Source of the DNA: Treponemataceae bacterium
GTDB taxonomy: Bacteria; Spirochaetota; Spirochaetia; Treponematales; Treponemataceae
DNA: 64,000 nucleotides
Assembly: GCA_024402495.1 (NCBI GenBank)
Contig: JAKSTR010000006.1
Span: forward strand, 1 to 64,000
Direction: 5' to 3'
Part shown: piece after piece, positions 8,276 through 53,072 of the stretch
Layout: each line of letters opens with the position of its first letter
Position numbering within the stretch: position 1 is the stretch's first letter
Notes under the pieces: model-generated
Database searches by the model: none
What the model was told of the DNA's origin: nothing
Seen by the model: only the letters and a program-made list of their open reading frames with translations
Made by a program: the position numbers and the translations under genes

Positions 8276-8980
8276 CTATATTTCTTTTATAAGGTTCAGC
8301 ATAAGCTCCGTGCTTTCTGCGGCGGCGGTTTCTTCGTTAAAGCTGTATGTTGCTTCGGCAGAATCGTCTGCCATGTCGCTCATGCAGCGCACGATTACAA
8401 ACGGCGTCTGGTTAAGGTAACAGGCGTGGGCAATTGAAGCACCTTCCATTTCGCAGCAGGCGGCATTGAATGTTGATTTTATAAAGTTTTTCTTTTCGCC
8501 GGAAGAAATGAACTGGTCGCCGGAAGCAACGAGCCCTTTTACAAGCCTGCGGTTTTTGCAGGTTTCGCTTGCGGCAAAGGCTTTTTCTACCGCGGCAATA
8601 AGTTTTTCGTCGGCAGGAAAGTCGCGTACCTGGATGCCGGGAACGTGTCCGAATTCGTAGCCGAAGATTTTTACGTCAACGTCGTGGTGCACGGCTGCCG
8701 TAGAAACTACAAAGTCGAAAATTCCAAGACCCTGCGCCATTGCGCCGGCGATGCCTGTATTTATTATGCAGTCGCATTTAAATTCCCGGCAAAGAATCTG
8801 GGCACAAAGGGCTGCGTTTACTTTTCCTACGCCGCTTTGCACAACTGTAACGTTTTTTCCGCAGAGTTTGCCGGTATAAAAGGTTAAATTTGCTGTTTCG
8901 GTTTTTGCGGCTTCGGTCATGGCGGCAATCAGGTTTTTTACTTCAATTTCCATTGCGCCAATAATTCCAATTTTATTCAT
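8276..8980 (-). CDS. mtnN: 5'-methylthioadenosine/S-adenosylhomocysteine nucleosidase
   Basis: A 234-residue Pfs/MtnN. It begins MNKIGIIGAMEIEV. It carries the substrate-specificity segment CCEMEGASIAHAC (residues about 171-183) and the catalytic-Asp region VRCMSDMAD near the C-terminus. It hydrolyses SAH and MTA, feeding LuxS encoded nine bases downstream. On the minus strand, a TATAAT at 9026-9021 supplies the -10 box; the -35 is poor. This is the first gene of the four-gene minus-strand operon. Confidence 0.95.
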   Translation of the reverse strand: MNKIGIIGAMEIEVKNLIAAMTEAAKTETANLTFYTGKLCGKNVTVVQSGVGKVNAALCAQILCREFKCDCIINTGIAGAMAQGLGIFDFVVSTAAVHHDVDVKIFGYEFGHVPGIQVRDFPADEKLIAAVEKAFAASETCKNRRLVKGLVASGDQFISSGEKKNFIKSTFNAACCEMEGASIAHACYLNQTPFVIVRCMSDMADDSAEATYSFNEETAAAESTELMLNLIKEI

Positions 8981-9064: not shown

Positions 9065-9170
9065 GCAAAGAATGATAAGGTTATGCGTAACTGTGCAGAT
9101 AATGCTAGTTAAAGCAGAATTTGTTAAAAAATGTACAACTTTGCAAAGAAACGTAAGAAACCGCAAAGAA
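9065..9170 (+). repeat. Three GCAAAGAA direct repeats upstream of the sRNA promoter
   Basis: GCAAAGAA occurs at 9065-9072, 9143-9150 and 9163-9170. The last two are spaced 20 bases start to start. The third ends five bases before the TTGACA of the candidate sRNA promoter. The placement resembles binding sites of an activator or repressor, which is an inference. Confidence 0.4.
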
Positions 9171-9175
9171 TGTTA

Positions 9176-9204
9176 TTGACAGGTTTTAAACAGTAATGTA
9201 TATT
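9176..9204 (+). promoter_or_regulatory. Strong promoter for a candidate small RNA
   Basis: TTGACA (9176-9181), a 17-base spacer and TATATT (9199-9204). This is one of the best promoter matches in the window. The transcript would start near 9211 and run into two or three hairpins ending in a T-tract at 9364-9370, without any coding potential of note. Confidence 0.7.
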
Positions 9205-9210
9205 AATGTC

Positions 9211-9371
9211 AACAAACAGCAATACCAGAAAAAAGACCGTGTTTTTCTTTCCTCCTTTGCGGTCTTTTTTCTTTTTAAACTCATTGTTGCAAGTTCCTAA
9301 CCAAAACTTGCAAAGCATTCCTCCTTTTGTACCGGCGTTCAATTTCTCCTTTGTGGACGCCGGTTTTTTTA
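9211..9371 (+). ncRNA. Candidate trans-acting small RNA with three anti-Shine-Dalgarno motifs
   Basis: The proposed RNA is about 160 nucleotides. Hairpin 1 pairs 9229-9239 with 9260-9270 (11 base pairs, AAAAAAGACCG / CGGTCTTTTTT); its 20-base loop contains TTTCCTCCTTTG. Hairpin 2 pairs TTGCAAGTT (9287-9295) with AACTTGCAA (9305-9313). A single-stranded linker then carries ATTCCTCCTTTTG. Hairpin 3 pairs ACCGGCGT (9331-9338) with ACGCCGGT (9357-9364); its loop contains TTTCTCCTTTG and a seven-base T-tract follows. Each CCUCC or CUCC motif is complementary to Shine-Dalgarno sites. It could instead be a terminated 5' leader for the protease gene at 9484. Confidence 0.6.
9331..9370 (+). terminator. 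Intrinsic terminator of the candidate sRNA
   Basis: An eight-base GC-rich stem, ACCGGCGT / ACGCCGGT, is followed directly by TTTTTTT. Hairpin 1 (9229-9270), with its own T-tract, could act as an earlier terminator. Confidence 0.75.
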
Positions 9372-9483
9372 TGCCAAAATATTTTTGCAATTTTTCAATT
9401 TTCAGTTTGACAGTTCAAAACGGCTAAAGTAACTTTAAAAGAAAGGCTCTTTGCTTTTTCATTTCTTTGTAAACGAGGATTTT

Positions 9484-23400: not shown

Positions 23401-23543
23401 AACATTTCATATAAACCCGACATTTGATCTATTAACAAATTTTTCAAAAATAATATAAGCGAAAACCAATTCTCATGATAAAATGTTTTATATTTCAATT
23501 TGTTTGAACGTGCTTTTTGTTGAATGAGAGGAGGAATTTTTCA

Positions 23544-40619: not shown

Positions 40620-41419
40620 GCGAACTGCTTTTACGTGCAAAAGATATTGGTATTGTTTTTGGCGGTTTGCGTGCCGTTAGCGATTTTAACCTTGAACTTT
40701 ACGAAGGCGAACTTATCGGCTTAATCGGTCCAAACGGCGCCGGTAAAACCACCGTGTTCAACATGCTCAGCGGAATTTACAAGCCTACAAGCGGCACAAT
40801 CACATTTGTAGACCGCGACGGCGAACTTTTGGTAACAAATAAAAAAAGCCCGGCAGAATTAAACCGCATCGGTATTGCGCGCACTTTTCAGAACATACGC
40901 CTGTTCGGTAATTTGACGGTTGGCGAAAACATTAAAATTGCACTGCACCAGACGCGCAGCGTAAACCCTTTTGATGTTCTTTTCCGCACCAAAAAATTCC
41001 GCCACGACGAAGAACACATGCAGACCAAAACCGTGCAGCTGCTGGAACTTTTTCATCTGGAAAATAAAATTAACGAACTTGCCAAAAACCTGCCTTACGG
41101 CGAACAGCGCAAGCTGGAAATCTGCCGCGCTCTGGCAAGCAAGCCGAAGCTTCTGCTATTGGACGAACCGGCTGCCGGTATGAACGGTCAGGAAACCGAA
41201 GAACTGATGCACATGATTAGTGAAATCCGCAAAAAGTTCAATTTGACGGTTCTTCTTATTGAACACGACATGAAGCTTGTTATGGGCATTTGCGAACGCC
41301 TGCTGGTTTTAAACTACGGGCGCATTATTGCAAGCGGCTTGCCGGCAGAAATTCAGTCTAACGAAGAAGTAATTAAAGCCTATCTGGGTTCCGGTTACGA
41401 AGAAGCAAAGGAGGCATAA
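40616..41419 (+). CDS. livG: Branched-chain amino acid ABC transporter ATPase LivG
   Basis: A 267-residue ATPase. Walker A is GPNGAGKTT near residue 38. The signature segment is LPYGEQRKLEICRAL, the usual LivG variant of LSGGQ, and Walker B is LLLLDEPAAGMN. The C-terminal family extension is present (GRIIASGLPAEIQSNEEVIKAYLG). It powers the LivHM permease with LivF. The gene begins inside the livM stop. Confidence 0.95.
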   Translation: MSELLLRAKDIGIVFGGLRAVSDFNLELYEGELIGLIGPNGAGKTTVFNMLSGIYKPTSGTITFVDRDGELLVTNKKSPAELNRIGIARTFQNIRLFGNLTVGENIKIALHQTRSVNPFDVLFRTKKFRHDEEHMQTKTVQLLELFHLENKINELAKNLPYGEQRKLEICRALASKPKLLLLDEPAAGMNGQETEELMHMISEIRKKFNLTVLLIEHDMKLVMGICERLLVLNYGRIIASGLPAEIQSNEEVIKAYLGSGYEEAKEA

Positions 41420-53058: not shown

Positions 53059-53072
53059 AAAAGGAGAATTTA

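Follow-up and report, generated by a model that had tools for sequence, protein, structure and literature searches.

The RsaE/RoxS and RNAIII-type small RNAs (sRNAs) of Firmicutes bind Shine-Dalgarno (SD) sequences through C-rich unpaired seeds. In alphaproteobacteria, the NfeR1/alpha-r14 ('cuckoo') sRNAs carry an ultraconserved anti-SD sequence on divergent stems and are Hfq-independent, and occlusion of the ribosome-binding site (RBS) is proven for ntrB (PMC10746234). LhrC of Listeria acts at the lapB SD without needing Hfq (PMC4132741). Here we describe a locus beside mtnN in a 64,000-nucleotide stretch of a Treponemataceae genome (contig JAKSTR010000006.1, positions 1–64,000; the window). 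The sequence supports a dedicated noncoding sRNA gene that shows anti-SD sequence in its loops. We put at roughly 60% the probability that the product is a trans-acting sRNA that would be expressed, bind strong SDs in vivo through an anti-SD loop, and repress translation by occluding them, with no Hfq detected.

The treponeme RNA has an invariant unpaired anti-SD sequence on diverging stems, as do the NfeR1/alpha-r14 sRNAs, which is a common principle and not homology. NfeR1 also resembles the form in the window in having three motifs. However, the NfeR1 motif CCUCCUCCC lies in three hairpins with another promoter and context in alphaproteobacteria, whereas the treponeme RNA has a 5′ AGCAGCAA end and carries UCCUCCUU in a single conserved terminator hairpin, beside mtnN, in Spirochaetota. 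Three hairpins with identical CCUCCUCCC are not present; the tail in the window has two non-identical motifs, one of them in a linker. The three C/U-rich sites of LhrC (a stem-loop, a single-stranded stretch, and the terminator loop) are matched by the long form in the window only, not by the family core. LhrC has the motif CUCCC and is multicopy, LisR-controlled, and from Firmicutes, whereas the treponeme core has a single site; the window tail scores 30.6 bits with the LhrC model (RF00616) against a gathering score of 110. RsaE/RoxS and the RNAIII-type sRNAs use the motif UCCC in other structures and contexts, and the treponeme RNA has no Rfam match to them. Searched with Rfam 15, neither the window nor 15 member loci gave a gathering-threshold match to the RNA; the only matches were a transfer RNA and a 5S ribosomal RNA (rRNA) elsewhere. 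No description of the treponeme RNA was found in the literature. Judged by its sequence, this is a separate, previously uncatalogued RNA family on a known principle.

The loop carries the argument for SD occlusion. With the loops anchored on CTCC, the core UCCUCCUU is invariant in 27 of 27 distinct loops compared, and the flanks and stem drift. In three family members the 16S rRNA gene ends with GGATCACCTCCTTTCT, which identifies the invariant core as an anti-SD sequence; CCUCCUUU is common to the core and the 16S 3′ tail (GGAUCACCUCCUUUCU). SD occlusion is favored mainly because exactly the SD complement is invariant amid free drift elsewhere. The chief rival is that the RNA mimics the 16S 3′ end in general, as an abundant RNA that would tune global initiation on strong-SD mRNAs or titrate a protein that reads the 16S tail, with no defined target set. 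As a general rheostat, it would be highly transcribed and compete with ribosomes for the strong-SD minority in genomes where most genes have weak SDs. Repeated multiplication of the anti-SD motif would have increased its valency, and its place would be beside the mtnN-luxS methyl-cycle/autoinducer-2 genes. Such a mimic accounts for an invariant part that is the anti-SD core CCUCCUU and has 8 nt in common with the 16S tail. However, outside the core the loop departs from the tail (CUCCUCCUUU versus CACCUCCUUU) and lacks GAUCA, which 16S-tail-binding factors such as Era require, and known anti-SD sRNAs have target-dependent effects. We consider the mimic unlikely.

The stem below the loop is preserved by compensation. 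Its pairs are almost wholly replaced between genera (GACCGC/GCGGUC, GGGUCGC/GCGGCCC, and GGGUUGC/GCAACCC; further genus-specific pairs are CGGGAAGC/GCUUCCCG, CGGGGCGC/GCGCCCCG, and CGUACCGC/GCGGUACG), and both sides have changed in 8 of the 12 stem pairs. Stem cells are paired in 98.7% of cases compared to 82.2% in shuffles, and the covariation score is 0.545 compared to 0.205 for shuffled and at most 0.19 for slid versions. Fitting the alignment to the model somewhat favors structure, but the compensations are nonetheless plain by eye. The stem alignment contains 19 G-U cells that become A-C mismatches on the opposite strand. These cells pair only on the + strand, so the + strand is the RNA; the promoter and U-tract fix the same strand. 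The hairpin has the form of a terminator and might be no more than a strong, conserved terminator or a promoter remnant that has no RNA function. Terminators need no specific loop, yet conservation is highest in the large loop, and the motif is missing from other terminators that the model matched in the same genome, which makes a remnant hardly credible.

The features of the locus are the following.
9176–9204, + strand: sigma-70-type promoter TTGACA-17-TATATT (TTGACA at 9176–9181, TATATT at 9199–9204), by consensus match and conservation in 44 family promoters.
9140–9175, + strand: A-tract and putative UP element immediately 5′ of the −35 hexamer, with GCAAAGAA-type repeats at 9143 and 9163.
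9211–9276, + strand: conserved core sRNA, the predicted short form of ~66 nt, by covariation and covariance-model matches in 89 of 274 family genomes.
9211–9226, + strand: 5′ single-stranded stretch AACAAACAGCAAUACC (family consensus AGCAGCAAnAA, AGCAGCAA type), with CAGCAA near-invariant in two family alignments.
9227–9272, + strand: hairpin 1 (arms 9227–9241/9258–9272, loop UUUCCUCCUUU), the anti-SD hairpin doubling as intrinsic terminator, its stem running into a U-tract to 9276, by folding and covariation.
9247–9259, + strand: anti-SD motif 1, CUUUCCUCCUUUG, in loop 1, including the invariant core.
9280–9371, + strand: species-specific tail (hairpin 2, linker, hairpin 3) that would extend the RNA to a long form, 9211–9371.
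9287–9313, + strand: hairpin 2 (arms 9287–9295/9305–9313), without anti-SD motif, by folding.
9317–9329, + strand: anti-SD motif 2, AUUCCUCCUUUUG, in the linker.
9331–9371, + strand: hairpin 3 (arms 9331–9341/9354–9364, then UUUUUUUA) and final intrinsic terminator.
9342–9353, + strand: anti-SD motif 3, AUUUCUCCUUUG, in the terminator loop.
8276–8980, − strand: mtnN (methylthioadenosine/S-adenosylhomocysteine nucleosidase), the divergent neighbor, kept in 39 of 43 loci.

A preliminary description of the locus had proposed a near-consensus promoter, three stems ending in a terminator, anti-SD motifs in two hairpin loops and one linker, and no supported open reading frame (ORF), and each of these holds. 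The promoter matches the consensus at 11 of 12 positions, and the predicted transcript start at 9211 is 6–8 nt past the −10 box. Region 9205–9380 folds at −45.9 kcal/mol compared to −26.4 ± 3.6 kcal/mol in dinucleotide shuffles (z −5.4; none of 200 folded as stably), and the tail alone folds at −26.4 kcal/mol. The CCUCC/CUCC-UUU motifs stay unpaired, the mean probability of being unpaired being 0.87 for motif 1 (loop 1), 0.74 for motif 2 (linker), and 0.93 for motif 3 (loop 3). Of the four + strand copies of the motif TCCTCCTTT/TCTCCTTT in the 64 kb, three lie within this locus, and 1 of 20,000 dinucleotide shuffles matched the two copies in the 92-nt tail. The sole ORF across the locus (ATG 9206) was discounted: it starts before the likely transcription start, spans both terminators, and has no start codon in relatives. 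The conserved loop and covarying stem support the proposed dedicated noncoding sRNA. Its form needs revision. A single transcript of ~160 nt had been suggested, and a form of ~161 nt is indeed predicted. However, hairpin 1 is itself terminator-like, with A6/U6 running on into CUUUUU. A short ~66-nt RNA is therefore expected beside the long form, which would have to arise by read-through. Two isoforms are thus predicted, and the short one alone is conserved.

A DNA search of 59 relatives matched the promoter-proximal part in 6 of the 7 relatives from the window's genus, and also in two further genera. The tail was not found in these 59 relatives; real matches cover only hairpin 1 and the 5′ flank. 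A covariance model of that part, rebuilt once on 30 loci, places the RNA in the 89 family genomes at E ≤ 1e-3, in 12 of 20 genera, a few of the weakest of these matches being terminators without the motif. When 393 genomes sampled from the phylum (Spirochaetota) were searched, 23 matches reached E ≤ 1e-4; all of them lie in the same family, and no other Spirochaetota family in that sample gave a match. At least one member was missed, since that of G063 (L189) scored below threshold and was recovered by synteny at mtnN. The mtnN neighborhoods without a model match held no member in the 1.1-Mb genome G026, in genus g15, or at the mtnN loci of another Treponematales family, and the RNA family appears absent from the sampled small-genome (1.1 Mb) and 2.8-Mb single-contig relatives. 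A pattern scan of the genome collection added two Treponema metagenome-assembled genomes (L084 and L099); its remaining matches were not taken as members, the pattern being too loose. Paralogues in the window's own genome (L031–L033, model E 0.002–0.02) were rejected as ordinary terminators without the loop motif, as were L206 and L208, and L218/L058 are doubtful.

Loops that differed between species would have spoken against an sRNA according to the preliminary description; the loop is conserved across species and genera. Three motifs as the defining design did not survive the comparison. The conserved RNA is one anti-SD hairpin, and the two tail motifs are an addition seen only in the window species. 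Multiplication has also occurred independently in the distant genome G066, where two tandem anti-SD hairpins, each CUCUCCUCCUUUAGCG, stand behind one promoter (L207:944–1086). Some genomes carry second copies of the RNA in the covariance search. L209:944–1000 (−) and L210:953–1018 (+) are terminator hairpins with UCCUCCUUU loops that lack the 5′ AGCAGCAA part and have no mtnN nearby, possibly reduced paralogues in G015 and G086. Several members in genus g4 (L219, L221, and L222) have an extra, different hairpin, placed after the 5′ CAGCAGCAAGAAA motif and before the anti-SD terminator hairpin.

Across 44 distinct upstream regions, TTGACA is present in 27, the 17-nt spacer in 39, and TATATT in 20; these are lower bounds, the automatic promoter choice being plainly wrong in a few rows. 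Family A-runs lie at about −9 to −5, −20 to −15, and −30 to −25 relative to the −35 hexamer, phased by ~10–11 bp (about one helical turn), and by position they seem to correspond to the UP-element subsites of rRNA promoters. The RNA is probably abundant. A consensus-like promoter with phased A-tracts also suits a general 16S mimic. In the window, three GCAAAGAA copies lie 5′ of the sRNA promoter within 9065–9170 (9065, 9143, and 9163); they could be a curvature or UP element, or a regulator site common to the divergent mtnN.

The mtnN gene is divergent and 88–343 nt upstream in 39 of 43 loci, with luxS after it in several. An intergenic position and a nearly constant mtnN would fit a cis element, belonging either to the downstream gene, as its attenuated leader, or to mtnN, as an antisense or leader element. 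However, transcription runs away from mtnN on the strand fixed by the G-U pairs, and the downstream gene differs between genera, whereas the intrinsic terminator is conserved. No conserved same-strand downstream gene was found in 30 loci: yugP is close downstream in 8 of them and not in the others. In the window (9409), as in relatives, yugP has a promoter-like TTGAC box of its own beyond the terminator. A cis element is very improbable, and the leader of yugP, an outcome that the preliminary description had allowed for, is excluded.

SD usage was determined in a 0.8-Mb sample of genome G000 (L226–L265 and the window) with 662 predicted starts. AGGAG or GGAGG precedes 140 of these and AGGAGG 19; 230 have no 4-nt SD match in −18 to −4, and strong SDs are uncommon. 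Among loop duplexes with translation initiation regions at −9 kcal/mol or better, 84–90% are centered on the SD, and the 16S tail behaves alike. Several observations weigh against SD occlusion. Start-codon choice favors starts with an SD, which biases these positions. Loop-SD pairing energies are barely better than those of composition-shuffled loops, because the loops are U-rich and the leaders A-rich. Across 28 genomes, the genes whose RBS is complementary to the family loop are a mixed set. No target was found to recur among them apart from nrdB, seen in two genomes that belong to a single genus, which is also what a general 16S mimic would give. The RBS of mtnN varies from AGGAT to GGAGG, and mtnN was rejected as a target because the pairing is not conserved. 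A protein ligand of the loop is also possible.

Since shuffled U-rich loops do nearly as well, single RBS matches say little. This includes the matches in the preliminary description, which are all present (13 nt at 1662–1674, 10 nt at 41405, 9 nt at 23529, and 9 nt at 53060) but generic and not specific targets. The longest, complementary to motif 1, lies at the strong RBS of a micro-ORF, a 19-codon frame from TTG 1681 (1681–1737; MDIHYDVTKTAVPLGISLF). The micro-ORF was rejected as a conserved target, as it was not found in the 59 relatives. A promoter-like TTGACA lies upstream of it at 1587 (region 1583–1737).

Hfq (PF17209) was found in 0 of 40 genomes, with positive controls; the host Hfq expected for an Hfq-dependent class II sRNA was not detected in these 40. 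A Borrelia transcriptome paper treats the hfq label of bb0268 as a misannotation and withdraws it (PMC10319736). KhpA/KhpB-type K homology (KH) proteins are present in 13 of 13 genomes tested and are possible RNA chaperones, as candidates only. A second KhpA/B-family gene (~240 aa, KhpB/Jag-like) lies on the sRNA contig 4–62 kb off in G015 C65, G017 C8, G008 C1, G006 C16, G129 C7, and G019 C36, and the sRNA may be near the replication origin. The loop could also be a site for a C/U-preferring RNA-binding protein, as a sponge or assembly scaffold, with the likeness to an anti-SD secondary. An invariant loop on a drifting stem is equally expected of a protein site, the 5′ AGCAGCAA motif is conserved, and KH-domain proteins are at hand. 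However, the invariant 8-mer is exactly the SD complement, and the extra copies in the window and G066 arose as anti-SD sequence in differing structural contexts (linker and loops). We regard a protein site as improbable.

Under SD occlusion, the gene would be transcribed away from mtnN from a strong UP-element-like promoter. The core RNA of ~66 nt would consist of a single-stranded 5′ end (AGCAGCAA type) and a single hairpin that serves as terminator and displays the anti-SD loop (UCCUCCUUU). The loop would pair with accessible strong SDs (AAAGGAGG) and keep ribosomes off those mRNAs. Because strong SDs belong to a minority of genes, only a subset would come under the sRNA. Transcription past hairpin 1 would, in the window species, yield the 161-nt form, whose two further anti-SD sites (linker and terminator loop) would give it higher valency. 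KhpA/KhpB-type proteins might serve as chaperones where no Hfq was found.

Regulatory sRNAs of treponemes are almost unknown, and these genomes have no detected Hfq. The locus adds an RNA family that is conserved and supported by its structure, and whose loop sequence itself suggests a mechanism. Anti-SD sequence displayed in loops would then have arisen independently once more, after alphaproteobacteria and Listeria, and the family raises the question of how specificity is gained by an RNA whose complement is a generic ribosome site.
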